In this document: piece by piece, positions 26,747-41,519 of the stretch
How positions within the stretch are numbered: the stretch's first letter is position 1
Layout: every line of letters begins with the position of its first letter
Assembly: GCF_014518425.1 (NCBI RefSeq)
Contig: NZ_JACVCU010000001.1
Span: 1,178,001 to 1,242,000 of the forward strand
Length of the DNA: 64,000 bases
Direction of reading: 5' to 3'
Source of the DNA: Terrabacter sp. MAHUQ-38
GTDB taxonomy: Bacteria > Actinomycetota > Actinomycetes > Actinomycetales > Dermatophilaceae
Made by a program: the position numbers and the translations under genes
The notes under the pieces: generated by a model
Told to the model about the DNA's origin: nothing
What the model saw: only the letters and a program-made list of their open reading frames with translations
Databases searched by the model: none

Positions 26747-27250
26747 TCAACCCTCCTCGAGGTGCAGGACGACCTTGCGCAGCAGGCTGTTGAGCGTCAC
26801 GAGCTCCTTGGCCGTGAGCACCGAGAAGGCGTCCTGCTCGCGCGACATGCCCGCAGCGATTCCCTTCTCCCACAGGGCTCTTCCTGACGCCGTGGGCCGG
26901 ATCAGGATGCGCCGCCGGTCGATCGGGTCGACGTCGCGGGTCACGTGACCGCGTGCGACGAGTCGGTCGAGACGTGAGGTCATGGCAGCGCGGGTGATGC
27001 CGCACGAGTCGGCGAGCTGCGCAGGAGTCGCCTGCTCCGGGTAGGGCTGGATGAGGAGGGCGTGGAGGGTGTAGTAGTCCTCGATCGTGTCCTCGGTGTC
27101 GGCGTAGCTGGCGTGGCTGTCCGCCCTCAGCCGCTTGGTGATCGCCTGCATGCGCGTGATGGCACCCTCCACCTGCGGGTCGATGCCCTCGATGAGCCCG
27201 GACCATCGCGCGACGTGCCGGTCGACCGAGTCCTGCGGTGCTCTCGCCAT
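26747..27250 (-). CDS. MarR-family transcriptional regulator
   Basis: 167 residues. The winged helix lies at about 55-125: YTLHALLIQ, TPAQLADSCGITRAAMTSRLDRLVARGHVTRDVDPIDRRRILIRPTASG. Helices at both ends would form the dimer interface. ATG 27250 starts just after a short upstream in-frame extension that lacks a binding site. It is divergent from an MFS exporter gene with a shared 89-bp region carrying a near-perfect 18-bp palindrome, so it probably represses that exporter and perhaps itself, being relieved by a small ligand. The ligand is unknown. Confidence 0.9.
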   Translation of the reverse strand: MARAPQDSVDRHVARWSGLIEGIDPQVEGAITRMQAITKRLRADSHASYADTEDTIEDYYTLHALLIQPYPEQATPAQLADSCGITRAAMTSRLDRLVARGHVTRDVDPIDRRRILIRPTASGRALWEKGIAAGMSREQDAFSVLTAKELVTLNSLLRKVVLHLEEG

Positions 27251-27303
27251 GGCGCCAGTGTGGCAGAGCGGCGCAGCCATCGACGGATCCCTCTGACTAT
27301 TCG

Positions 27304-27333
27304 TTGACAGATAGTAAGACGTCTAACTACATT
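27304..27333 (+). promoter_or_regulatory. MFS gene promoter, leaderless
   Basis: -35 TTGACA (27304-27309) and -10 TACATT (27328-27333), or CTACAT at 27327 with exact 17-bp spacing. The ATG at 27340 is 6 nt beyond the -10, so the transcript would begin at or near the start codon. Confidence 0.7.
27312..27329. promoter_or_regulatory. Probable MarR operator
   Basis: TAGTAAGACGTCTAACTA is an 18-bp palindrome with one mismatched pair, filling the spacer and touching the -10 of the MFS promoter. A bound MarR dimer would block polymerase. Assignment to the adjacent MarR gene is inference. Confidence 0.68.
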
Positions 27334-27339
27334 CGGGAC

Positions 27340-28635
27340 ATGACCATCCGCGAGCTCCTCCGCGTCCGCGACTTCCGCCTCCTCCTCACCGGGCAGGGCC
27401 TGTCGTGGGTCGGAGACGCGTTCAACCCGATCGCGCTGTCGGTCGCGGTCGTCCTCACGGGCGGGGGAGCGGGTGAGCTCGGCCTCATCCTCGCGAGCGG
27501 CGTGGTCGCCCGGCTGCTGTGCACGCTCCTGGGCGGCGTCTGGGCCGACCGCACGACGCCGCACCGGGTCATGGTCGTCGCCGACGTCGTGCGGGCACTC
27601 TCGGTCAGCGGCCTGGCGGTCGCCTTCGCCCTCGGGGACCCTCCGGTGGCCCTCCTCGCCGCGCTCGCCGCGGTCACGTCGGGGGCCGGTGCGTTCTTCT
27701 ACCCGGCCTTCGTCGCCGTCCGTCCCCTCATCGTCCCCGCGGCCGGGCTGCAGAGCTCGAACGCCGCCGTCAGCTTCCTCCAGTCCTCTGCCCAGGTCGC
27801 CGGCCCCGTTCTCGCGGGCGTCGTCGTCGCGCAGCTCGGGTCGGTGCCGGGCTTCCTCGTCAACGCCGTGACGTTCGCATGGTCGGCCGTGTGCGTCGCG
27901 CGCCTTCACGCGCGCACCGACCGCATCACGCAGCGGGTCGGCCTGCTCGCCGAGGTCGGGGACGGACTGCGGGAGATCCGCAGCCGTGAGTGGCTCTGGA
28001 CGGGTCTCACGTCCGCCGCGATGTTCCACGTCGCCGGCGGCGCCTTCATCGTCCTCGTCGAGGTGACGGCCGTGCGCGACCTGGGCGGCGCGCACGCGCT
28101 GGGCCTCATCACGACCGCCCTCGGCGTGGGCGGCATCGTCGGCGGGCTCGTGGGACTGCGGCTCCAGCCGCGACGCATGCTGCTCTGGGCCTTCGTCGCG
28201 CTCGGCCTCTTCCCGCTCTTCCCGTTCTCCTTCGCGTGGGGCTCGGGCCTCGTGGCGATCCTCGCGATGGCCGCCGTCGCGCAGGCCGGACTGCTCTACT
28301 TCGACGTCGGCTGGCAGACCGCGCTCCAGCAGGGGGTGCCGCACGACCGTCTCGCCAGAGTGGTCTCGTGGGACGTCCTCATCTCGTTCATCGCGCTGCC
28401 GCTGGGCAACGTGCTCGCGGGCCCACTCAGTGAGCGCTTCGCGACGCGTGACCTCATGGTGGGCATCGCCGCCTGGATGCTCGTGGCCGGCTGCTGGCCG
28501 GTCCTCGTCCGCGGCGTCCGAGGCTTCACCCGTGACGGCGGCGCTCCCTCCGTCGCCACGGGTGAGGGCGCGGTGCAGGGCGCGGTGCAGGGCGCGCCCG
28601 AGGCCGCGCCACGTGCGGCGGTCGGGGCGTCGTAG
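27340..28635 (+). CDS. MFS transporter (probable drug/metabolite exporter)
   Basis: 431 residues with about 12 hydrophobic segments. Opening RELLRVRDFRLLLTGQGLSWVGDAFNPIAL and the loop-2 motif GVWADRTTPHRVMVV (MFS motif A) are typical of the MFS exporter group that includes macrolide-efflux-like proteins. ATG 27340 is fixed by the leaderless promoter. The C-terminal about 40 residues after the last helix are Ala/Gly/Gln-rich with a duplicated short segment (EGAVQGAVQGAPEA). The divergent MarR gene and the palindrome in the promoter suggest induction by the exported compound. Confidence 0.88.
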   Translation: MTIRELLRVRDFRLLLTGQGLSWVGDAFNPIALSVAVVLTGGGAGELGLILASGVVARLLCTLLGGVWADRTTPHRVMVVADVVRALSVSGLAVAFALGDPPVALLAALAAVTSGAGAFFYPAFVAVRPLIVPAAGLQSSNAAVSFLQSSAQVAGPVLAGVVVAQLGSVPGFLVNAVTFAWSAVCVARLHARTDRITQRVGLLAEVGDGLREIRSREWLWTGLTSAAMFHVAGGAFIVLVEVTAVRDLGGAHALGLITTALGVGGIVGGLVGLRLQPRRMLLWAFVALGLFPLFPFSFAWGSGLVAILAMAAVAQAGLLYFDVGWQTALQQGVPHDRLARVVSWDVLISFIALPLGNVLAGPLSERFATRDLMVGIAAWMLVAGCWPVLVRGVRGFTRDGGAPSVATGEGAVQGAVQGAPEAAPRAAVGAS

Positions 28636-28638: not shown

Positions 28639-28645
28639 GGGGGCC

Positions 28646-28894
28646 ATGGCTGCTTCGCAGGACTCGGGCGCTGGGTCGCGTTTCGTCGTCAACATCGTCG
28701 GACTCGTCGGCATCGTCTTCGGCCTGCTGCCCGTGGTGCGCTACCTGCTCGACCTGTCCTACTTCGGGTTCACCACGGCTCCCTACGACTGGCTCCGGCT
28801 CGACGGCGCCCTGCGCTACCTGCCACCGGTCATGGTGCTCGTCGTCTGCATCGCGGTCGCGTATGCGATGGAGAAGCGGCTGGAGCGGGACTGA
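28646..28894 (+). CDS. Small two-helix membrane protein, unknown function
   Basis: 82 residues with two hydrophobic stretches (FVVNIVGLVGIVFGLLPVV, about 13-31, and YLPPVMVLVVCIAVAYAM, about 58-75) separated by an aromatic-rich loop (LSYFGFTTAPYDWLRLDG). Starts 10 bp after the MFS gene, either cotranscribed or from its own TAGGTT box. GC and codon use agree with a real gene. No family recognised. Confidence 0.7.
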   Translation: MAASQDSGAGSRFVVNIVGLVGIVFGLLPVVRYLLDLSYFGFTTAPYDWLRLDGALRYLPPVMVLVVCIAVAYAMEKRLERD

Positions 28895-28966: not shown

Positions 28967-31798
28967 ATGCCGGTCCGGGCCCCCCTCGTCGCCGCGCTCG
29001 TCCTCGGGTCGAGCCTGGCGCTGACGCCCGCCCCCAGCTCAGTAGCGGCGCCGACCACGGAGTCGGCCACCCAACTCGCCACGCCGGAGGTCCTGACCGT
29101 GCCGGTCGGCGCCGAGCCCGACGGCACCAAGGTCCGGCTCGACGTCTCGGTCTGGCCCCAGGCGTCGGGGAGGCGCCCGGTCGTCCTGCTCGCTCACGGC
29201 TTCGGCGGTACGAAGGAGTCCGTCGCCGACGAGGCTGCCCAGCTGCAGGAGCGCGGTTACGTCGTCGTCGCGTGGAGCTCCCGCGGCCACGGGCAGTCGG
29301 GTGGTCGCATCCACCTCAACGACCCGGCCTACGAGATCGCCGACGCCAGAGCGTTGCTCGACCTCGCAGCGAAGCGCCGCGACGTCGAGCTCGACGGCCC
29401 CGGCGACCCCCGCGCCGGGGTCATGGGCGCGTCCTACGGAGGCGCGCTCGGCCTGATGCTCGCCGGCATCGACAGGCGCGTCGACGGAGTCGTCTCGGCG
29501 ATCACGTGGAACGACCTCGCCGACGCCTTCTTCCCCCAGGCCGCGGTGACCCGGTCCGCGACCACGGCGGCCGGCCGCCACCCGATCGGCGTCGCCGGCC
29601 CGTTCAAGCAGGTCTGGGCGACCAACTTCTTCCTCTCGGCGCTCCGTGGCGTCGCCGGTGAGGAGAACGGCGCGGGAGCCGCTGCCACCGACCGCTGCGG
29701 ACGCTTCGACCCCACCGTCTGCCGCCTGTTCGTCCAGGCGTCCGAGACCGGGAAGGCCTCACCCCAGCTCACTGCGCTGCTGCGCGCGCACAGCCCCAAG
29801 CCCACGATGAATGCCGTGCACGCCCCGACGTTCCTCGTCCAGGGCGTCGCCGACTCGCTCTTCGGGCTCGACCAGGCGGACGCCACCGCGTCCGCGCTCG
29901 CCGCCACGGGCACGCCGTATGCCGTCCGGTGGAGCGACGGCGGCCACGACGCCGCGAGCACGCACGAGGCCGAGGAGGTCGAGGCGTCCTACACCTGGCT
30001 GGACCACTACGTCCGCGACAAGGCGCCGCGCGAGTCCGCCCTCCCGACAGCCGCATTCACCTACGGCACCCCAGCCGGCCGCCCGGGACAGCCGACAGCG
30101 CTCCACAACCTGCCGGCATACCCCGGGCTGTCCGGAGCGCCCGTCGAGACCCGCGAGCTGCCGCTGACGACGACCGGGGGCAGCCTGCTGCACCCTCCCG
30201 GTGGCCAGCCCGCCTCACTCATCGCCGTGCCCGGCCTCGCGGCCCTCGGGGTCAGCCTGTCCACCTACCAGGTCGCGGCCCTGCCGGGTCAGTCCGCCGC
30301 GCTCGACTCGAGCCCCATCGCCGAGGCGGCCACGGTCGTCGGCTCGCCGACGATGCGCTTCACGGTCACGTCCGACACGTCCGACGTGACCCTCTTCGCC
30401 TCGGTCTGGCGGGTCACGGGTGGCGCGGTCACGCTGACCAACCCGCTCGTCGCGCCCGCGCGCCTGACGGTGACGCCGGGCCGGCCGACACCCGTCACGA
30501 TCTCGCTGCCGGCCGCGACCTACGAGATGCCCGCCGGCACGCGGTGGCGGGTGCTGCTGACGAGCACCGAGTCGACGTACTCCAACTCCCGTGAGCCGAG
30601 CCGCATCCGCATCCAGGACGCGTCGGCGCTGACGCTGCCCGTGGCGACCGGTACCGAGGTCGGCCGCGTCGCCGTCGCTGGTGTCGACACCGAGACGCTC
30701 ATCGCGTCCGCGCTCCTCGCGCTCCTGCTCCTCCTCGCCCTCGCCGGCTGGCTCGTGCGCCGCCGGCGCCGGCGGCACCTGCCGTCGCGGCCCGACCTGG
30801 CGGACGTCCCGCTCGTGGTCGAGGGCCTCGTCAAGACCTACTCGGACGGGCACCGAGCCGTCGACGACGTGACGTGGCGCGCCGAGAAGGGCCAGGTCGT
30901 CGGCCTGCTCGGGCCCAACGGCGCGGGCAAGACGACGACGATGCGCATGGTCATGGGCCTCATCTCGTCGGACGCCGGCAGCGTCCACGTGCTCGGCGAG
31001 CCGGTCACCGCCGGCGCCCGGGTGCTCGCCCGCGTCGGCGCGCTCATCGAGGGTCCCGGCTTCCTGCCACACCTCACGGGCCGCCAGAACCTCGAGGCGT
31101 ACTGGGCCGCCACCGGTCGCAGGCCGGAGGAGGCCCACTTCGCGGAGGCCCTCGACGTCGCGGCGCTCGGCGGTGCCGTGGACCGCCCCGTGAAGTCCTA
31201 CAGCCACGGCATGCGCCAGCGCCTCGGCATCGCGCAGGCCATGCTCGGCCTGCCCGAGCTGCTCGTCCTCGACGAGCCGACCAACGGGCTCGACCCGCCG
31301 CAGATCGCGGCGATGCGCCCGATCCTCAAGCGCTACGCCGAGACCGGTCGCACCGTCGTCGTGTCCAGCCACCTGCTCGCCGAGGTCGAGATGACCTGCA
31401 CCCACGTCGTCGTCATGCACGCGGGTCGCGTCATCACCCAGGGCCTGGTCGCCGACCTCGTCGACAGCGACGACACGACGATCCTCGACCTCGGTGAGCA
31501 CGTCGACCACGACGTCGTCAGTGCCGGTGTCCACGCCCTCGAGGCGACCCGGGGCGTCACCGACGTGCGGGTCGACACGCCCACGCGCCTCGTCGTCGTC
31601 GCCGAGCGAGGCCGGGCCGAGGTCGTCGCGGCTGCCGTCGAGGGAGGGCTGCCCGTCGTCGGCGTCAGCAGCAGGCGGCACCTCGAAGAGGTCTTCCTCG
31701 GCGTCATCTCGTCGGCCTCCGCGCCGCTCGACGGGGCTGAGCCCGGTGACGAGGGAGCGTCCCTCGTCGAGCGACTTAGGCAGGTGAGGGCGCGTTGA
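28967..31798 (+). CDS. Fusion: secreted alpha/beta hydrolase - transmembrane helix - ABC ATPase
   Basis: 943 residues. Residues 1-28 are a signal sequence. About 45-370 form an alpha/beta hydrolase of the CocE/X-Pro-peptidase type: HGFGGTKES, SSRGHGQSGG, nucleophile Ser156 in MGASYGG, Asp in VQGVADSLFG, His in DGGHDAAS. A beta-rich region (about 400-560) follows, like the C-terminal jelly-roll of that family. One helix (about 576-598) ends in an RRRRRR stop-transfer, then a cytoplasmic ABC ATPase: Walker A GPNGAGKTTT (about 649), signature YSHGMRQRLG (about 745), Walker B LLVLDEPTNGLD, SSHLL. So the hydrolase is outside and the ATPase inside. Start ATG 28967 preferred; GTG 28961 possible. The permease gene overlaps its stop. 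Confidence 0.85.
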   Translation: MPVRAPLVAALVLGSSLALTPAPSSVAAPTTESATQLATPEVLTVPVGAEPDGTKVRLDVSVWPQASGRRPVVLLAHGFGGTKESVADEAAQLQERGYVVVAWSSRGHGQSGGRIHLNDPAYEIADARALLDLAAKRRDVELDGPGDPRAGVMGASYGGALGLMLAGIDRRVDGVVSAITWNDLADAFFPQAAVTRSATTAAGRHPIGVAGPFKQVWATNFFLSALRGVAGEENGAGAAATDRCGRFDPTVCRLFVQASETGKASPQLTALLRAHSPKPTMNAVHAPTFLVQGVADSLFGLDQADATASALAATGTPYAVRWSDGGHDAASTHEAEEVEASYTWLDHYVRDKAPRESALPTAAFTYGTPAGRPGQPTALHNLPAYPGLSGAPVETRELPLTTTGGSLLHPPGGQPASLIAVPGLAALGVSLSTYQVAALPGQSAALDSSPIAEAATVVGSPTMRFTVTSDTSDVTLFASVWRVTGGAVTLTNPLVAPARLTVTPGRPTPVTISLPAATYEMPAGTRWRVLLTSTESTYSNSREPSRIRIQDASALTLPVATGTEVGRVAVAGVDTETLIASALLALLLLLALAGWLVRRRRRRHLPSRPDLADVPLVVEGLVKTYSDGHRAVDDVTWRAEKGQVVGLLGPNGAGKTTTMRMVMGLISSDAGSVHVLGEPVTAGARVLARVGALIEGPGFLPHLTGRQNLEAYWAATGRRPEEAHFAEALDVAALGGAVDRPVKSYSHGMRQRLGIAQAMLGLPELLVLDEPTNGLDPPQIAAMRPILKRYAETGRTVVVSSHLLAEVEMTCTHVVVMHAGRVITQGLVADLVDSDDTTILDLGEHVDHDVVSAGVHALEATRGVTDVRVDTPTRLVVVAERGRAEVVAAAVEGGLPVVGVSSRRHLEEVFLGVISSASAPLDGAEPGDEGASLVERLRQVRAR

Positions 31799-32673
31799 CC
31801 GCCAAGACGCACGTTCCCCGCACGCCGCCGTCCCTCGAGCTGACCCAGGTGCGAGACCCGCTCTCGTGGCGCGCCGAGCTGGGCCGGCAGTGGGGGAGGC
31901 GGCGTACGGCCTGGGCCTTCGGGCTACTGCTCGCGCTGCCGCTCATCCTCGTCGCCTCGTTCGCCTTCGGGGAACGGTCCGACAGCAGCCGCGGCGGCAC
32001 GACGACCCGCATCTTCGACCTCGCCCAGAGCGGAGCCGCGAACTTCAGCCTCGTCCTCGTCTTCCTCGCGTCCGAGCTGCTGCTCGTGCTCCTCGCCGCC
32101 CTGTTCTGCGGCGACGCCGTGCCGTCGGAGGCGTCGTGGGCGTCGCTGCGCTACCTGCTCATCGCGCCCGTCCAGCGCGCGCGGCTGCTGACGAGCAAGC
32201 TCGCCATCGGCGTCGCCTCGACCCTGCTCGCGACCGTCCTGCTCCCCGCCTGGGGCCTGCTCGTCGGCGGCCTCGCCTACGGCTGGGACCCGCTGACCAA
32301 CCCCATCGGCGAGAACCTCACGTGGGGCCAGTTCCTGCCGCGGCTCGCGCTCGCGATGGGCTACATCTTCGTGACGCTGCTGCCCATCGCGGCCGTGGCG
32401 TTCTGGCTCGGCACCCGCTCGGACGCGCCCCTCGCGGCGGTCGGCGGGGCGGTCCTCGTCAGCATCGTGCTCAACATCCTCGACCAGCTCGACGCCCTCG
32501 ACCCGTACCGCAACGCCTTCCCCGGCCACTACTCCCGGGCCTGGATGGACGCCCTCGCGGTGTCGCCCGACTACACCGACATGCTGCACGGTGCGCTGTG
32601 GGCGCTCGTCTGGGCCGTCGCGTTCACGATGCTCGCCTACCGCCGCTTCCGCCGCTCGGACATCCTCAGCTGA
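31795..32673 (+). CDS. ABC-2 type permease, partner of the hydrolase-ATPase fusion
   Basis: 292 residues with six hydrophobic segments in the ABC-2 pattern: LLLALPLILVASFAF, a long extracytoplasmic loop, LVLVFLASELLLVLLAALFCGD, then AVPSEASWASLRYLLIAPVQRARLLTSKL, the cytoplasmic coupling region typical of NatB/CcmB-like exporters. It starts with TTG at 31795, its TGA sharing bases with the stop of the fusion gene (TTGA), with GAGGG 5 nt upstream. The transported substrate is unknown. Tight coupling implies a 2+2 complex with the ATPase part of the fusion protein, bringing the extracellular hydrolase to the exporter mouth. Confidence 0.88.
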   Translation: MTAKTHVPRTPPSLELTQVRDPLSWRAELGRQWGRRRTAWAFGLLLALPLILVASFAFGERSDSSRGGTTTRIFDLAQSGAANFSLVLVFLASELLLVLLAALFCGDAVPSEASWASLRYLLIAPVQRARLLTSKLAIGVASTLLATVLLPAWGLLVGGLAYGWDPLTNPIGENLTWGQFLPRLALAMGYIFVTLLPIAAVAFWLGTRSDAPLAAVGGAVLVSIVLNILDQLDALDPYRNAFPGHYSRAWMDALAVSPDYTDMLHGALWALVWAVAFTMLAYRRFRRSDILS

Positions 32674-32723: not shown

Positions 32724-33857
32724 ATGACGACTCCTGTCGACGACATCAGTGCACCCGGCCGGCTCGCGGACCCGGACGAGGGCATCACGCTCGACGAGCT
32801 GCTGCTCGCGAGCCGGAACCACGCGATGCCCATGGAGGCGCTCCGCGACGACGTCACGCCCGCGGGGCTGCACTACGTCCTCGTCCACTACGACATCCCG
32901 TCCGTGGACGCCGCGACGTGGCAGCTGGCCGTGACGGGCGAGGTCGAGCGGCCACTCACCGTCGACCTGGAGAGGCTCCGCTCGATGCCGTCCCGCACGG
33001 TCCGGGTGACCATGGAGTGCGCCGGCAACGGACGGGCAGCCTTGAGCCCCAGGGCGATCAGCCAGCCCTGGCTCAACGGTGCCGTGGGCACGGCCGACTG
33101 GACCGGCATACCCCTGCGGGCACTCCTCGACGAGGCAGGCCTGCGGACGCAGGCGCACTCGGTCGCCTTCGCCGGTCTCGACCACGGCATCGAGCGCGGC
33201 GTCGAGCAGGACTACGAGCGCGGCCTCACCCTCGACGAGGCCGTCGGCGACGACGTGCTCGTCGCCTTCGAGATGAACGGCGCCCCGCTGCCACCCCAGC
33301 ACGGCCACCCGGTCCGGCTCGTCGTCCCGGGCTGGTACGGCATGGCGCACGTCAAGTGGCTCACGAGCGTCACGGTGCTCGACCACCCGTACGAAGGGTT
33401 CCAGAACGCCGTCGCCTACCGCCTGCGCCAGGAGCGGGGCGAGCGGGGTGAGGCGATCACGCGCATCAACCCGCGGGCCCTGCTCGTGCCACCGGGCTTC
33501 CCCGACTTCCAGACCCGCGCTCGCGTCGTCCGCGCGGGTTCCGTCGACCTGCAGGGCCGGGCGTGGTCGGGCTGGGCCCCCGTCGAACGCGTGGAGGTGA
33601 GCACCGACGACGGCGCGACGTGGTCGGACGCGGAGCTCGACCGCGGCGCCGACCGGTGGGCGTGGCGCAGGTTCACGTTCGGGTGGGAGGCGCGGCCGGG
33701 ACGGCACCTGCTGAGGGCACGGGCCACGGACGCCTCGGGACGGGTCCAGCCCACCGAGCCCCAGTGGAACCTCGGCGGCTTCACGAACAACGCCGACCAG
33801 GCCGTCGTCGTCCACGTCCTCGAGCCGGCGGTCAGCCCGCCTGAGGGTCCGCCGTGA
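32724..33857 (+). CDS. Sulfite-oxidase-family molybdopterin enzyme
   Basis: 377 residues. The molybdopterin core (about 25-235) carries the Mo-ligating Cys in VTMECAGNGRAAL, plus DWTGIPLRALLDEAG, GLDHGIERGVEQDYERGL and HGHPVRLVVPGWYGMAHVKWL. About 265-375 is the C-terminal Ig-like dimerisation domain (GRAWSGWAPVERVEVSTDDGATW). No signal peptide or Tat RR motif and no haem domain is visible, so it is probably cytoplasmic, unlike most sulfite oxidases. Substrate could be sulfite or another oxo-acceptor; not determinable here. ATG 32724 has GGAGGTG upstream. The last 26 bp overlap the convergent phosphoribosyltransferase gene. Confidence 0.87.
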   Translation: MTTPVDDISAPGRLADPDEGITLDELLLASRNHAMPMEALRDDVTPAGLHYVLVHYDIPSVDAATWQLAVTGEVERPLTVDLERLRSMPSRTVRVTMECAGNGRAALSPRAISQPWLNGAVGTADWTGIPLRALLDEAGLRTQAHSVAFAGLDHGIERGVEQDYERGLTLDEAVGDDVLVAFEMNGAPLPPQHGHPVRLVVPGWYGMAHVKWLTSVTVLDHPYEGFQNAVAYRLRQERGERGEAITRINPRALLVPPGFPDFQTRARVVRAGSVDLQGRAWSGWAPVERVEVSTDDGATWSDAELDRGADRWAWRRFTFGWEARPGRHLLRARATDASGRVQPTEPQWNLGGFTNNADQAVVVHVLEPAVSPPEGPP

Positions 33858-34518: not shown

Positions 34519-37500
34519 GTGGTCCATCCCCCACGAACGGTCACGCGAAGGCAGACCCGGCGGACGGCGGTCCTCGCGGCCGCAGCCCTCATGGCCGCGA
34601 CCGGAGCCCTGGTCGCACCGCACGCCGCCAGCGGTGCGCTCGTCGCGACAGCGGACCTTCCCTTCCGCAACCCCAGGCTCCCGATCGAGGAGCGGGTCAA
34701 GGACCTCATGGCCCGGCTCACGCTCGACGAGCGCATCGGGCTGCTGCACCAGTACCAGCAACCGGTGCCCCGACTGGGGATCGGCATCTTCAAGGCAGGC
34801 ACCGAGGCGCTCCACGGTCTCGCCTGGTCGAACAACCACCGCGACGGCGGCAACGGCGTGACCGCGACCGCCACCCAGTTCCCCCAGGCACTCGGCTTGG
34901 CCAGCACCTGGGATCGGGCACTCGTCGAGCAGGTCGGCTCCGCCGTGGGCGACGAGGCCCGCGGCATGCACGCGAAGGACCCCGAGGTGTGGGGCCTGAA
35001 CCTGTGGGCTCCGGTCGTCAACCTGCTGCGCGACCCGCGGTGGGGCCGCAACGAGGAGGGCTACTCCGAGGACGCGCTGCTCACCGGGGCCGTCGCGACG
35101 GCCTACGGCTCGGGGATCCAGGGCCACGACCCGACGTACCTGAAGGCCGCGCCCACGCTCAAGCACCTCATCGGCTACAACAACGAGGCGCAGCGCGACA
35201 CCTCGTCGTCCAACCTGCCGCCGCGCGTCCTGAAGGAGTACGAGCTCAAGGCGTTCGAGGCGCCGCTGGCGGCGGGGGCTGCGACCGGGATGATGGCCTC
35301 CTACAACCTCGTCAATGGGCGCCCGTCCACGGTCGACCCCCTGATCGGCGAGCTGCGGTCGGTCTCGAAGACGCCGCTCTTCAACGTCAGCGACGCCTTC
35401 GCACCGGGCAACCTCGTCGGGTCCCAGCACTACTTCGACACCCAGCCCGAGGCGAACGCGGCCATGTTCAAGGCCGGCATCGACGGCTACGTGGCGGACA
35501 ATGCCGACCCGACCCCGATGACCAGCGCGGTCAAGGACGCGCTGGCCAAGGGGTTCATGACCGAGGCGGACGTCGACGCAGCAGCGTCGCATGCCCTGAC
35601 CCTGCGGTTCCGGCTCGGTGAGTTCGACCCCGACGGCGGACCGTACGGGGCGCTCGGGGCCTCGGAGGTCAACGCCCCGGAGCACCAGCGGCTGGCTCGC
35701 ACCGCGGCGGCCGAGGCGATGGTGCTGCTGAAGAACTCGAAGGACGCCCTGCCCCTCGACGCCGCCCGGGACAAGAGCGTGGCCGTGATCGGCCAGCTTG
35801 CCGACACGGTCTACGGCGACTGGTACGGCGGCAACGCCCCCTACGCGGTGACCCCGGCCGCGGGTATCGCCAAGCGGCTCGGCGGCTCCGGCTCGGTGAG
35901 CACCGTCGAGGGCGTCGACCGGATCGCCCTGCGCGACAAGGCAACCGGCAAGTATGTGACCTCACGGGGCGCCACCGACGCCGACACGGTCGCGGCGGTG
36001 GCCGACACCGCAGGTCCGGCCGCCCAGTTCGACGTCTTCGACTGGGGCGAGGACGTCGTCACGCTTCGCAACGTCGCGACGGGCAATGTCGTGGGCAGCA
36101 ACTGGTCCGCCTTCGTCACCAAGGACAAGCAGCCGAACGGGTGGTTCGTGCAGCAGCAGTTCGCGATCGAGGACCAGCCCGACGGGTCGGTGGTCCTGCG
36201 CTACGCCGGCTACGAGACGAGGGAGAGCTGGTACGGCGGCGGCACCTACGTGCGTGTCGGGGACGACGGCATCCTGCGCGCCGACGCGAAGTCCGCGGCG
36301 GAGGCCAGCCGTTTCACGCGCGAGACACTGAGCAGCGGCGCCGCGCAGGCAGCCGCCGCGGCTGCGAGGAGCGACGCTGCTGTCCTCGTCGTCGGCAGCA
36401 TGCCGTTCATCAACGGCCGCGAGAACCGCGACCGCACGAGCATGGACCTTCCCGCCGGCCAGCGGCGTCTCGTCGAGGCCGTGCTCGCCGCCAACCCGAA
36501 GACAGTGCTCGTGCTCGAGAGCTCCTACCCGGAGACGATCGACTGGGCGCAGCAGACCGTGCCCGCGATCGTATGGACGACCCATGCCGGTCAGGAGACG
36601 GGCAACGCCCTGGCCGACGTCCTCTTCGGCGACATCAACCCCTCCGGGCACCTGACGCAGACGTGGTACCGGGCAGGCACCCAGCTGCCGAGCATCCACG
36701 ACTACGACATCATCAAGAGCAAGCGCACCTACCAGTACTTCGAGGGCACGCCGCTCTACCCCTTCGGGCACGGCCTCAGCTACACCGACTTCGCGTACGG
36801 CCCGGTCACGGCCACGCCCGGATCGGTGGCACCCGACGGCACGGTCACCGTCCGGGTGACGGTGCGCAACACCGGCACCCGCGCGGGCGAGGACGTCGTG
36901 CAGCTCTACGACCACCAGCGAACGTCTCGCACTCCCCAGCCGGACCGGCGACTGGTCGGTTTCGCCAAGGTGCGGCTCGCCGCCGGCGAGTCCCGGCAGG
37001 TGGCGATCACCGTCAAGGCCGCCGACCTCGCGGTCTGGGACGTGACGCGCGGGCGCTGGGTCGTCGAGGACTCGGTGCACGACCTCCTGGTAGGCCGGTC
37101 CGTCGAGGACATCCGCGCCACGGCGTCGCTGGACGTGCGGGGCGAGGTCGTGCCTCCGCGAGACCTGAGCGTGACGACGAGGGCCATGAACTTCGACGAC
37201 TACTCCGGCATCAGCCTCGTCGACGAGTCCAAGACCTCCGGAACGTCGATCACCGCCCCCGAGGCCGGAGGCTGGGCCGTCTACCGCGACGCCCGCCTCG
37301 GCAAGCGGGCGCTGACGTTCACCGCGCAGGCCGCGCTGGCCGGACCAGCCCCCGCGACCGTCGAGCTGCGTGTCGGGTCCCCGACCGGCGCGCTCGTCGG
37401 ACGGGCCAGCGTGGCGCCGACCGGCAGCGTGTACTCGTACCGGTCCGTCACGGCCTCGGTCACGGCGCCGGTGGCCCACGGGGACCTCTACCTCGTCCTC

Positions 37501-37539
37501 GGCAAGGGGGTGCGGATCTCCTCCTTCACGCTCCGGTAG
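34519..37539 (+). CDS. Secreted GH3 glycoside hydrolase with inserted beta-trefoil-like and C-terminal CBM6-like domains
   Basis: 1006 residues. A Tat-like leader (RRQTRRTAVLAAAALMAATG) implies secretion. The GH3 barrel (about 50-360) shows TEALHGLAW, GRNEEGYSED, KHLIGYNNE and the nucleophile Asp in FNVSDAFAPG. The alpha/beta sandwich starts at AMVLLKNSKDALPLD and is interrupted at about 470-600 by a segment with repeats like IALRDKATGKYVTS and GTYVRVGDDGILRAD, resembling a fascin-type beta-trefoil. A fibronectin-III-like domain (about 775-860) and a CBM6-like domain (about 885-1006) follow. Activity is probably beta-glucosidase or beta-xylosidase on plant glycans. GTG 34519 has a perfect AGGAGG. 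Confidence 0.86.
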   Translation: MVHPPRTVTRRQTRRTAVLAAAALMAATGALVAPHAASGALVATADLPFRNPRLPIEERVKDLMARLTLDERIGLLHQYQQPVPRLGIGIFKAGTEALHGLAWSNNHRDGGNGVTATATQFPQALGLASTWDRALVEQVGSAVGDEARGMHAKDPEVWGLNLWAPVVNLLRDPRWGRNEEGYSEDALLTGAVATAYGSGIQGHDPTYLKAAPTLKHLIGYNNEAQRDTSSSNLPPRVLKEYELKAFEAPLAAGAATGMMASYNLVNGRPSTVDPLIGELRSVSKTPLFNVSDAFAPGNLVGSQHYFDTQPEANAAMFKAGIDGYVADNADPTPMTSAVKDALAKGFMTEADVDAAASHALTLRFRLGEFDPDGGPYGALGASEVNAPEHQRLARTAAAEAMVLLKNSKDALPLDAARDKSVAVIGQLADTVYGDWYGGNAPYAVTPAAGIAKRLGGSGSVSTVEGVDRIALRDKATGKYVTSRGATDADTVAAVADTAGPAAQFDVFDWGEDVVTLRNVATGNVVGSNWSAFVTKDKQPNGWFVQQQFAIEDQPDGSVVLRYAGYETRESWYGGGTYVRVGDDGILRADAKSAAEASRFTRETLSSGAAQAAAAAARSDAAVLVVGSMPFINGRENRDRTSMDLPAGQRRLVEAVLAANPKTVLVLESSYPETIDWAQQTVPAIVWTTHAGQETGNALADVLFGDINPSGHLTQTWYRAGTQLPSIHDYDIIKSKRTYQYFEGTPLYPFGHGLSYTDFAYGPVTATPGSVAPDGTVTVRVTVRNTGTRAGEDVVQLYDHQRTSRTPQPDRRLVGFAKVRLAAGESRQVAITVKAADLAVWDVTRGRWVVEDSVHDLLVGRSVEDIRATASLDVRGEVVPPRDLSVTTRAMNFDDYSGISLVDESKTSGTSITAPEAGGWAVYRDARLGKRALTFTAQAALAGPAPATVELRVGSPTGALVGRASVAPTGSVYSYRSVTASVTAPVAHGDLYLVLGKGVRISSFTLR

Positions 37540-37560
37540 CACCCATCCGCCGGACCGACG

Positions 37561-37599
37561 CGAACGGCCCCGCTCACCACAGGTGGGCGGGGCCGTTCG
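37561..37599. terminator. Strong bidirectional terminator hairpin
   Basis: 18-bp arms CGAACGGCCCCGCTCACC (37561-37578) and its complement (37582-37599), one G-T wobble, loop ACA. Lies between the convergent GH3 and GH1 genes. Confidence 0.85.
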
Positions 37600-37695
37600 A
37601 CGTGCGGGCTTCCGGGGGGGCAAGTCAGCCGTGGCGCGGCTGGCGCGGCGTCCGCAAGGACGGCGCGCTGGGCGACCGTGAGCTTGTGCGCTTCC

Positions 37696-39156
37696 TCAGT
37701 CGCGCGCCGCGTCCCCTCGCGAGACTGCCTCGTGGACGGCGAGGAGGCCGGCGTACCACCGGCCGGAGTCCTTGATGGTCCGGACCTGGGTGTCGTAGTC
37801 GACGTGCACGATGCCGAAGCGCCGCTCGTAGCCGTAGGCCCACTCGAAGTTGTCGAGCAGTGACCAGACGAGGTAGCCGCCCACGTCGGCGCCGGCGTCG
37901 ATCGCGTCGGCCACCGCCCCGAGGTGTGACCGGACGTATGCCGTCCGGTCGGCGTCGCGGACTCGCCCGTCCGCATCGACCCGGTCGGGGAACGCCGCCC
38001 CGTTCTCGGTAATGAGCAGGGGCAGGCCCGGGTAGCGCCTCGCGAGGCCGGTGAGCAGCTCGGTCAGCCCGGCAGGGTCGATGTTCCAGCCCATGGCGGT
38101 GTGTGGTGGTGCCGTGGCGGGGAACTCGACGTCGTCCGCCCCGACCCACGGGCTCGCGCCGTCGCCATGGCCGTCGGCCGTCTGCTTCGGGCCGGTCCCG
38201 ACGTGCTGGCGCACCAGGCAGCTCGCGTAGTAGTTGACGCCCAGGGTCGTCAGCGGCACGGCGATCTGCTCGAGATCGCCGTCGTGGACGAACCCGAAGT
38301 CGCTGACGCCGGCGACGTCGTGGAGCAGGTCGTCGGGATAGCGGCCCTCGAGCATGGGCCCGAGGAACGCACGGTTCGCCAGGGCGTCGACCTTGCGCAC
38401 GGCCTCGAGGTCTCCGGGGCTGGACGGGTCGACGGGGCGCGGCACGTGGAAGTTGAGCGCTGCGCCCACCCCGAGGTCGTCGCCCGCGACGGCCCGCAAC
38501 GCCCGCCCGCCGAGTCCGTGCGCGAGGTTGAGGTGGTGCACGGCGGCGAGGGCTGCCGCCGGTTCGGTACGTCCGGGTGCGTGCACGCCCGCGGCGTAGC
38601 CGAGGTAGGCCGAGCACCACGGTTCGTTGAGCGTCAGCCACAACGGGATCCGGTCGCCGAGGCGCTGGGCGACGAGGCCCGCATACTCGGCGAAGCGGTA
38701 GGCCGTGTCGCGCACCGGCCACCCGCCGGCATCCTCGAGTGCCTGCGGCAGGTCCCAGTGGTAGAGCGTCGGGATGGGCTGGATCCCCTTGTCCAGCAAG
38801 GAGTCCACGAGCCGCGAGTAGAAGTCGAGGCCCTTCTCGTTTGCGGGGCCACGTCCGGTCGGCTGGACCCGCGGCCACGCGATCGAGAAGCGGTAGGCGC
38901 CCAGGCCGAGTCCCGCCATGAGTGCGACGTCCTCGCGCCAGCGGTGGAAGTGGTCCACGGCCACGTCGCCGGTGTCGCCCCCGAGCGTGCGGCCCGGCGT
39001 GTGGCTGAACGTGTCCCAGATGGAGGATCCGCGCCCGTCCTCGTGCACGCTTCCCTCGATCTGGTATGCCGCGGTCGCGGCACCCCAGCGGAAGCCCGCC
39101 GGGAACCGCTGGGCGAGAGAGGCCGTCGCGGAGCGCACGCGGGTCGGGGTCGTCAT
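37696..39156 (-). CDS. GH1 beta-glucosidase
   Basis: 486 residues, typical GH1 length and no signal peptide, so cytoplasmic. [18 protein letters not shown] opens the barrel; acid/base Glu178 lies in LTLNEPW and nucleophile Glu384 in ITENGAAF, with [18 protein letters not shown] near the end. It hydrolyses terminal beta-glucosides (possibly beta-galactosides) of imported oligosaccharides. ATG 39156 overlaps the GH31 stop (ATGA), so translation is coupled. It is the last gene of the LacI-controlled operon. Confidence 0.94.
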
Positions 39157-41519
39157 GACGCCGGCCCGGTGGCGAGGGTGATCTCGACGACCTCGTCCGC
39201 CGCCTCGACGAGGAGGCCGCCGACGGCATACGGCAGGTCGTCCGGGTGCGGGATCGCCCGCCCGCCGACCACGGTCGCCGCACTGCCGGCGCCCACGACG
39301 AGCACCCGGAAGCCGCCCGCGAGGTCGGGGCCCGAGGCCCGTCGCGCGGTGATGACCTCGCCAGTGCGCTCCACGGTGAAAACGGTGTCGGCGTCGCCCG
39401 CGAAGCCGGGGACGGTCACCTCGCGGACACCGTCGGCGAGCTCGACGAGGGCCAGCGTGACGCCGTCTGCCCACGCGTACTCGGGTGAGTCGCTGCGAGC
39501 GCCGAGCGGCAGCACCGTGTCGGGCCGGACGAGCAGGGGAACCGAGTCGAAGCCGTGCTGTTCGCGCACCCACGCGGGGCCCGTGACCGTGCGTCCGTCG
39601 AGCAGGCCGGTCCAGCGGCCGGAGGGCACGTAGTAGTCGACCGCGCCCTCGTGCGAGAGCACCGGCGCGACGAGCAGCGAGTCGCCGAGGGTGTACTGGC
39701 GGTCGAGGTGTGCCACGGCCGGGTCGTCCGGGAACTCGAGGAGCAGGGGACGCATCACCCCCACGCCGTCGCTCGTCACCTCCCGCGCGACCCTCGCGAG
39801 GTAGGGCATGAGGGCGAGCTTGAGCCGGGTGAAGCGGCGCGTCACCTCGACCGCCTCGTCGTCGAACGCCCATGGCACGCGGTAGGAGTCCGACCCGTGC
39901 AGCCGGCTGTGGCTCGAGAGCAGCCCGAAGGCGAGCCACCGCTTGAAGACCGCAGGGTCCGGTGTGCCCTCGAAGCCGCCGATGTCGTGGGACCAGTAGC
40001 CGAACCCCGAGTAGGCGAGGGAGAGCCCGCCCCGGAGCGACTCGGCCATCGACGGGAACGTCGAGTCGCAGTCGCCACCCCAGTGGACCGGGAACTGCTG
40101 CCCGCCCGCCGTGGCGGAGCGGGCGAAGAGCACCGCCTCCCCGTCACCCTTGGTGCGCCGGAGCAGGTCGAAGACCGCGCGGTTGTAGAGATGCGTGTAG
40201 TAGTTGTGCATCCGCTCCGGGTCGCTGCCGTCGTGCCAGACGACATCCGTCGGGATCCGCTCGCCGAAGTCGGTCTTGAACGCGTCGACGCCCAGGTCGA
40301 GCAGCTTGTGGAGCTCACCGGTGAACCAGTCGACGGCGGCCGGGTTGGTCAGGTCGACGAGGCCCATCCCGGCCTGCCACTTGTCCCACTGCCACACGCT
40401 GCCGTCGGGCCGTCGCACGAGGTAGCCCTTCTCCATCCCCTCGGCGAACAGGTGCGACCGTTGCGCGATGTAGGGGTTGATCCACACGCACACCCGCAGG
40501 CCCTTTGCCTTGAGCCGCCGGAGCATCCCCGCGGGGTCGGGGAACGTGGCGGGATCCCAGACGAAGTCGCACCAGTGGAACTCGCGCATCCAGAAGCAGT
40601 CGAAGTGGAAGACCGACAGGGGCAGCCCGCGCTCGGTCATGCCGTCGACGAAGGACATGACCGTCGCCTCGTCATAGCTCGTCGTGAACGACGTGGAGAG
40701 CCAGAGACCGTACGACCAGGCCGGCACCTGCGGGGCCCGGCCGGTGAGAGCCGTGTACCTCGCGAGGATCTCCTTCGGCGAGGGCCCGTGGATGACGTAG
40801 TACTCGAGCTGCTCGCCTGCGACGGAGAACTGGGTCGCGGACACCGCCTCCGACGCCACCTCGAACGACACCTCCTCGGGGTGCCGCACGAAGACCCCGT
40901 AGCCCGCGTTCGTGAGGTAGAACGGCACGTTCTTGTAGGCCTGCTCGCTGCTCGTGCCGCCGTCGGCGTTCCAGATGTCGACGGTCTGCCCGTTCTTGAC
41001 GAGCGGACCGAAGCGCTCGCCCAGCCCATAGACGAGGTCGCCGACCCCGAGGGCCAGCTGGTCGACGGCGAAGACGTCGTCGTCCTCGAAGAGGGCGACG
41101 CCGGTGCCGCGCGGCATCGACCCGGTCAGGCGGCGTCCGCCGGCAAGGAAGCTCACCGCGTACCCGGGGCCCTTCGCGACGTGCACGCTGAGGCCACCGG
41201 CAGTGAGCGTCCCGCCGTCGTCGTCGACGCTCACGCAGACCGGCGCGTCAGCGACACCGTCGACCCCGAACTGCGGGTGCCTCGGGCCCCCTCCCAGGTG
41301 CCGGCCCAGCCGGACGCGGATGACGTCGGGCATGGGGGAGCTGAACTCGACCGTCAGCAGGGGGCGGTTGAGCGTGTCGCCGCGGGTGTGGATGCGGGCC
41401 GTGGGGGCGTATGCCGTCAGTGTCCTGCCGTCGTCGCCGACCTCGAGGTCGCGGACCTCGGCGGGGCGCAGCAGCGTCACGCCGTGGCGGGACTGCCAGT
41501 AGCCGTCAGTGAACTTCAT
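39153..41519 (-). CDS. yicI: GH31 alpha-xylosidase (YicI type)
   Basis: 788 residues, the size of YicI. The nucleophile Asp417 lies in [12 protein letters not shown], which with [16 protein letters not shown] closely follows E. coli YicI; the acid/base Asp is in [13 protein letters not shown] (about 485). The KTDFGERIP form separates alpha-xylosidases from GH31 alpha-glucosidases. No signal peptide, so it acts in the cytoplasm, releasing xylose from alpha-xylosyl ends such as isoprimeverose. With the GH1 and GH3 enzymes and the importer this fits xyloglucan-oligosaccharide breakdown. ATG 41519 has CGGAG upstream. Confidence 0.92.

Follow-up and report, generated by a model that had tools for sequence, protein, structure and literature searches.

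Here we present the analysis of a two-gene module located in a 64,000-nucleotide stretch of the Terrabacter sp. MAHUQ-38 genome (contig NZ_JACVCU010000001.1, positions 1,178,001 to 1,242,000), the whole of which is called the window below. The first gene is predicted to encode a secreted hydrolase tethered through a single membrane helix to an ATP-binding cassette (ABC) ATPase, and the gene next to it a NosY-like permease. The fusion is widespread among bacteria of the Actinomycetota, and its exact architecture is apparently undescribed, as far as a narrow open-access search goes. By analogy with YbbAP-TesA of Escherichia coli, we tentatively propose that the two genes may encode one membrane complex, which would bring a hydrophobic or amphiphilic molecule, by extraction or export, to the attached outer hydrolase. 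If such coupling is real, a cytosolic motor would feed an outer-face enzyme through a single helix.

Architecture of the fused gene

The fused chain is encoded by a single open frame on the + strand, running from GTG 28961 or ATG 28967 to TGA 31798; residues are numbered from GTG 28961. The start of aligned close relatives (set by script) coincides with ATG 28967, and a pattern for a strong Shine-Dalgarno sequence ahead of ATG had no match in the window. Pfam assigned Peptidase_S15 (57.6 bits, cut-off 23), PepX_C (37.5 bits, cut-off 22.5) and ABC_tran (96.8 bits, cut-off 25) to the chain, and the first two exceeded their cut-offs also in the fused relatives L162, L187 and L180. An AlphaFold model based on 34 sequences reached a mean predicted local distance difference test score (pLDDT) of 85.7 and a predicted template modelling score of 0.64, the relative placement of domains in it not being trustworthy. 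Pfam, sequence motifs and the model agreed with the earlier sequence-only reading of this DNA, which had described a signal peptide, a Ser-Asp-His hydrolase, one helix with RRRRRR and a complete ABC ATPase in one chain. The following features were assigned:

28967..31798, +, fused gene: extracellular hydrolase, single transmembrane helix and ABC ATPase (943 residues from ATG 28967; GTG 28961 possible too)
28967..29050, +, signal peptide, cleavage near SSVAA/PTTES inferred from sequence
29087..30025, +, alpha/beta hydrolase domain with cap (Pfam, AlphaFold model, alignment); Ser158 at 29432-29434, Asp298 at 29852-29854, His329 at 29945-29947
29696..29722, +, cysteine pair C246/C254 in the cap, a possible disulphide, each cysteine conserved in 103/105 fused open reading frames (ORFs)
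30098..30661, +, beta jelly-roll domain of the PepX_C type (Pfam, AlphaFold model)
30689..30772, +, single transmembrane helix, residues 577-604, running into RRRRRR (AlphaFold model; C-terminus inside by the positive-inside rule)
30809..31480, +, ABC ATPase domain, in which E697 (31049-31051) replaces the usual Q-loop glutamine (Pfam, Foldseek, alignment)
31481..31720, +, small domain C-terminal to the ATPase, missing in many distant relatives (alignment, AlphaFold model)
31795..31798, +, TTGA stop/start overlap of the two genes
31795..32673, +, ABC-2 permease with six membrane helices in the model, NosY-like (Pfam, model, fold match)

Rfam and tRNA scans across the window gave no matches.

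Distribution of the fusion

Examination of 166 sources, many of which share the same gene, yielded 160 ORFs with a near-full ectodomain. The fused form accounts for 132 of them and the remaining 28 are not fused, two being truncated by contig ends; removal of copies left 105 distinct fused ORFs. The sequence-only reading had allowed for a sequencing error joining two genes at the linker; sequencing or assembly error is ruled out by the 132 fused ORFs in the fetched loci. In the Terrabacter genome itself 101 places match the whole protein, at full length only at the window locus. One further place (C11:738271) gives a short partial hydrolase match (E 3e-5), and the remaining matches begin no earlier than residue 499, within the ATPase part or shortly ahead of it.

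Among named taxa, carriers include Terrabacter, Humibacillus, Intrasporangium, Knoellia, Austwickia, Actinomadura, Pseudokineococcus and Nanopelagicales. A search with the ectodomain and anchor found matches in 73/186 family genomes at E 1e-30, some standalone forms among them, while a profile of 25 ectodomains at E 1e-40 found 146/394 class and 48/396 phylum genomes, with fused and standalone forms mixed. These are counts of ectodomains and not of fusions, since standalone forms can outscore fused ones: with the ectodomain profile the standalone L198 and L199 reach about 1e-123, the fused L173 9.6e-89. Among the 59 loci taken from the class and phylum searches (L119-L177), 52 are fused and two (L145, L171) are truncated at a contig end, while the standalone form accounts for five (L172, L174-L177).

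One large genus with genomes of 5.5-12.4 Mb, probably Streptomyces, carries the ectodomain in 136 of 150 genomes at E 1e-100, with one match apiece. Of these matches, 134 are located in open frames of at least 854 residues and two in shorter ones (599 and 748 residues), and all ten loci fetched (L150, L151, L153-L160) are fused. The fusion is present also in two genomes of only 1.3-1.4 Mb (L187, L188). Its frequency in the large genus and its retention in such small genomes both suit a general role.

The expectation that fused relatives may sit in databases under plain annotations proved true of the one annotated case seen, a Tsukamurella plasmid copy labelled 'alpha/beta fold hydrolase' and adjoining an 'ABC transporter permease'. 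The module was also seen on a contig titled Rubrivirga, which is no actinomycete (L077, 5911-9278); on the tree its protein nests by the Nanopelagicales form L069, and the contig is possibly mis-binned.

Conservation of the two catalytic parts

The triad Ser158, Asp298 and His329 is intact in all 105 distinct fused ORFs and in all 21 standalone relatives. On these residues the idea of a dead enzyme is rejected, and the absence of catalytic residues in orthologues, considered in the sequence-only reading, was not encountered. The ATPase part carries a complete motif set consisting of Walker A (K657), signature (S748/G750), Walker B (D771/E772), D-loop (D778) and H-loop (H804); all seven residues are conserved in 105/105 fused ORFs, T658 and E697 in 104/105. 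With the triad and nine ATPase positions conserved to this degree, both ends of the protein look functional.

Foldseek placed PaL lipase first for the ectodomain, followed by cocaine esterase, amino-acid ester hydrolases and X-Pro peptidases, sequence identity to the listed structural matches being 11-20%. In a sequence profile comparison with solved structures, two PaL chains came top and spanned both parts of the ectodomain (E 6e-32); a literature search on 8YZN/8YZO gave nothing relevant. Computation supports a secreted alpha/beta hydrolase of the esterase/lipase type. The oxyanion tyrosine of CocE is Tyr44; the strand end that may correspond to it here reads HGFG (H in 104/105 fused ORFs).

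Two further positions distinguish the fused from the standalone enzymes. R108 and E125 are invariant in 105/105 fused ORFs, whereas among the 21 standalone relatives position 108 is Leu in 12, Arg in 5, Gln in 2 and Ser in 2, and position 125 is Asp in 18 and Glu in 3. Residues fixed in the fused forms and mostly different elsewhere suggest that the fused clade may have a common substrate type.

As regards the ATPase, Foldseek gave TM_1403 as the top match and NosF as the next. A role in anti-phage defence was considered and set aside; the PADLOC matches are confined to the ATPase part.

Membrane helix and topology

Topology was analysed in a set of 34 rows comprising the window and 33 relatives, and, where stated, in the larger set. 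As the rows had been picked for being fused, their shared domain order is no independent count. An excess of Lys and Arg on the ATPase side of the helix was found in 34/34 rows (159 vs 10 in total) and in 104/105 of the larger set. A hydrophobic N-terminal segment exceeded the chosen threshold in 27/34 rows, some of the seven below it having script-set starts placed too late, and a further weak hydrophobic stretch elsewhere in the chain occurs in 8/34. Two rows (L073 and L075) begin with a lipoprotein-type signal; in these a lipid anchor may hold the outside end in addition. The charge bias, the N-terminal segment and the lipoprotein-type signals support the predicted orientation, with the hydrolase outside and the ATPase inside, as the sequence-only reading had it.

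The linkers have a median length of 12 residues on either side of the helix (interquartile ranges 10-16 and 11-16), outliers spanning from -13 to 50 on one side and from 6 to 106 on the other.

A standalone relative (L213, 1742-3541) has a C-terminus of LPATGG, a hydrophobic run and RRR, which resembles a cell-wall sorting signal; the wider hydrolase family may also act outside.

Permease and gene junction

Pfam recognised ABC2_membrane_4 (PF12730; 37.1 bits, cut-off 27) and ABC2_membrane_2 (PF12679; 36.1 bits, cut-off 27.2) in the downstream gene. Its model (pLDDT 83.9) contains six helices, while plain hydropathy shows seven peaks, and the best fold matches are NosY chains (E 9e-4, template modelling scores 0.54/0.59), followed by ABCG proteins; a sequence search of solved structures with the permease returned nothing related. 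A permease of this family is encoded on the same strand directly downstream in 100 of the 101 fused ORFs with at least 250 downstream bases, its projected start lying from -67 to +173 relative to the fused stop. The single exception is L032, in which 396 downstream bases were examined. The dedicated permease of the sequence-only reading is supported.

The claimed start of the permease inside the stop codon was confirmed as well, TTG 31795 spanning CGT-TGA. In 100 such pairs the fused gene ends with ATGA in 71, GTGA in 18, CTGA in 7, TTGA in 3 and ATAA in 1. Since a TGA stop after any base except C yields an overlap automatically, the overlap alone proves little; A precedes TGA in 71/100 module pairs vs 50/282 called TGA-stop genes in 36 loci (module genes included).

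History of the fusion

A quick ectodomain tree, with Shimodaira-Hasegawa approximate likelihood ratio (SH-aLRT) support only and rooted on one chosen standalone row, was built after a redundancy filter had reduced 132 fused and 26 standalone ORFs to 84 and 21 rows; L053, L079, L145 and L171, cut by contig ends, were left out. All 84 fused rows fall into one clade (SH-aLRT 98), which is nested among the standalone hydrolases and contains a single standalone row, L039. The tree shows two changes between fused and standalone labels, one of them L039, and long branches for L177 and L187. The simplest history is a fusion made once and undone once, and the tree suggests one old fusion that was retained and re-split in a single case. 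With two label changes on the tree, repeated arising or splitting of the fusion is not supported.

The re-split gene, present also as L200 (3943-5805, minus strand), encodes a hydrolase which ends after the membrane helix. Its region is devoid of an ATPase and of a permease of this family, so that the motor was apparently lost by natural means. A second copy, within an open frame of 1130 residues, is present in the same genome (G001). In 20 regions fetched around standalone forms no permease of this family was found, and another ABC ATPase ORF occurs in four.

Gene neighbourhood

Comparison of neighbours relied on a crude gene caller, which called spurious antisense genes in loci of very high GC content and overlooked real ones, e.g. 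the molybdopterin enzyme directly downstream in the window; the survey is therefore weak evidence of absence. The fused gene and the permease are present in 36/36 loci compared, and, among the rows listed and with module matches excluded, any third gene recurs in at most 6 of the 35 other loci. Pfam analysis of 119 neighbours (up to three per side, 20 loci) gave the major facilitator superfamily (MFS) as the commonest, in 6; among the 25 commonest of 161 families no biosynthetic family recurred, AMP-binding being present in 2. The sequence-only reading had proposed looking for co-occurring peptide, ester or antibiotic genes; none was seen to recur in the 36 loci or the 119 neighbours. The context yields no substrate and speaks against a single antibiotic pathway.

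We also considered an ester hydrolase acting on aminoacyl lipids, the products of MprF. PF09924 was matched in 46/73 ectodomain-positive vs 53/113 negative family genomes (Fisher p 0.036, uncorrected for kinship and genome incompleteness); 27 ectodomain-positive genomes are without a match, and the idea was rejected as an obligate link.

In the window, a small hydrophobic protein with no Pfam match is encoded just upstream of the module (28640-28894), and a similar sequence precedes the module in five close relatives (L041, L042, L045, L049 and L052). Further upstream, a MarR-type regulator is divergent from an MFS transporter (26747-28635). Directly downstream lies a sulfite-oxidase-like molybdopterin enzyme (32724-33857; 248.5 bits vs the SorA cut-off of 600), followed by a glycosidase group of family 3 with a family 6 carbohydrate-binding module (CBM6), family 1 and family 31 (34519-41519).

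Proposed mechanism and its alternatives

In the mechanism which we tentatively favour, and regard as quite possible, two fused chains and two permeases would assemble as in NosF2Y2, so that two outer enzymes would stand above the channel. Powered by ATP binding and hydrolysis, the permease would lift its substrate, a hydrophobic or amphiphilic ester or else a peptide, out of the membrane or through it; at the outer face the tethered hydrolase would then cleave the delivered molecule. The substrate may be a common envelope lipid or a membrane-active amphiphile and not one specialised antibiotic. The logic would be that proposed for YbbAP-TesA, realised through unrelated parts and a covalent link. 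A more ambitious version, which we consider doubtful, is that of a conserved actinobacterial processor of lipids or amphiphiles, in which ATPase and outer-face hydrolase form one chain and ATP-driven extraction is thereby mechanically coupled to cleavage. It would be an independent invention, on a NosY/ABCG-type fold, of the pairing of ABC part and outer hydrolase proposed for YbbAP-TesA and ZmaM, and would serve the envelope in a general way across most of the large genus.

Several points weigh against this mechanism. The structural matches, based on models, fix neither direction nor substrate, and the NosY match of the permease is modest, the E value of 9e-4 being the sole one under 0.001. 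Lipid extraction is not a known function of NosDFY. The outer loops of the permease (conservation 0.55-0.61) are no more conserved than its helices (0.55-0.76), and no conserved docking surface is evident. The tethering helix is poorly conserved in sequence (0.40 vs 0.77 for the ATPase), which suits a passive tether too, and for L200, which has the helix and lacks the ATPase, the motor is apparently dispensable to the enzyme. Extraction by YbbAP itself awaits confirmation according to its authors (PMC12646458).

Extraction, export, switching and tethering all fit the same anatomy and are not separated by the present evidence. This bears on the idea of the sequence-only reading that a substrate is cleaved as it leaves, which is reasonable but unproved, as lifting from the outer leaflet, switching of the enzyme and plain tethering account for the same parts. 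In one such scheme the pump would export the cell's own protected product and the outer hydrolase would remove the protecting part, the role proposed for ZmaM in the case of zwittermicin. ABC-2 transporters are commonly exporters, and the general idea is shared with ZmaM, EdeA and PamJ, in each of which an ABC part is joined to an extracytoplasmic peptidase. Against it, no biosynthetic genes were seen with the crude gene caller to recur beside the pair, and the module is retained in two 1.3-1.4 Mb genomes; we consider such maturation unlikely.

Transport may also be no part of the function: cycles of the ATPase could pull the helix or the permease and thereby toggle the outer hydrolase, in the way FtsEX acts on cell-wall enzymes. 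The linkers flanking the helix, short in most cases, would suit such a switch, FtsEX systems are described as governing hydrolases across the membrane, and the best-matching fold, NosDFY, has its partner NosD outside. On the other hand, a helix of such low conservation looks like a plain anchor, and we consider the switch rather improbable.

We hold to the same degree improbable that the fusion merely keeps hydrolase and pump together in equal numbers while each does separate work. Standalone relatives are common and lack the family permease in the 20 regions fetched around them, and L200 retains the helix without the ATPase, as a mere tether would allow; however, just one standalone row occurs within the clade of 84 fused rows, and residues 108 and 125 differ between the fused and most standalone forms. 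Finally, a self-protection pump of the lantibiotic/bacitracin immunity kind that also destroys the expelled compound is very unlikely. Glutamate stands at the Q-loop position in 104/105 fused ORFs, a trait of lantibiotic immunity ATPases (for which a literature search gave no usable source), and the top NCBIfam scores of the ATPase are those of a lantibiotic protection subunit (TIGR03740) and DrrA (TIGR01188), but at 168.7 bits both stay far under the curated cut-offs of 309.75 and 312.45, and the 36 loci showed neither a recurrent regulator nor a recurrent peptide gene.

The preferred mechanism, delivery of a substrate to the outer enzyme, could be tested directly, because the module is small, gives a single match at E 1e-100 in each positive genome of the large genus, shows no other partners so far and is present in named genera such as Terrabacter, Intrasporangium and Actinomadura.

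Comparison with known systems

The outside partner of NosDFY, NosD, is a separate protein and not a hydrolase. FtsEX, in which an inside ATPase governs an outside hydrolase, resembles the module in that arrangement, and differs in consisting of separate proteins, in its Type VII membrane fold and in the enzyme class. Among solved structures, NosDFY (PDB 7o0y, 7o0z, 7o17 and others) is the best match to the permease and the second-best kind for the ATPase after the lone subunit TM_1403. The ectodomain has the alpha/beta hydrolase and jelly-roll parts of PaL lipase (8yzn, 8yzo), CocE, alpha-amino acid ester hydrolases and X-Pro dipeptidyl peptidases, all of which are without a fused ATPase. PMC3482391 mentions a fungal ABC transporter that contains a fused nuclease domain, which is a different design.

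A narrow search of open-access literature found no description of a hydrolase, one helix and an ATPase in one chain with a separate permease. The claim of the sequence-only reading that no characterised system has this design was nevertheless too strong, as two sets of analogues are known (PMC9889268, PMC9889270 and PMC12646458). ZmaM, EdeA and PamJ (PMC9889268, PMC9889270), of which ZmaM has been purified and assayed (PMC9889270), likewise combine an extracytoplasmic hydrolase and an ABC part in one chain. Their enzyme, however, is a peptidase of the beta-lactamase family (PF00144), while Pfam gives S15 and not PF00144 here; their ABC part is a half-transporter domain instead of one helix and an ATPase with a separate permease; and they sit in antibiotic gene clusters, in contrast to the module, beside which no recurring biosynthetic neighbours were seen with our gene caller. 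YbbAP-TesA of E. coli combines an ABC complex with an extracytoplasmic serine hydrolase having esterase activity, to which the complex is proposed to lift hydrophobic molecules (PMC12646458). Its permease has a Type VII fold with periplasmic domains, unlike the NosY-like permease model obtained here, and its GDSL hydrolase is a separate protein, whereas here the hydrolase is of the S15 type and covalently joined to the ATPase.

As the folds differ, neither system is a member of the family; by analogy, ZmaM is a precedent for the covalent joining and YbbAP-TesA for the mechanism. If coupling in the present module is real, then together with these two it would show that pairing with an outside hydrolase has come about on each of several ABC folds.

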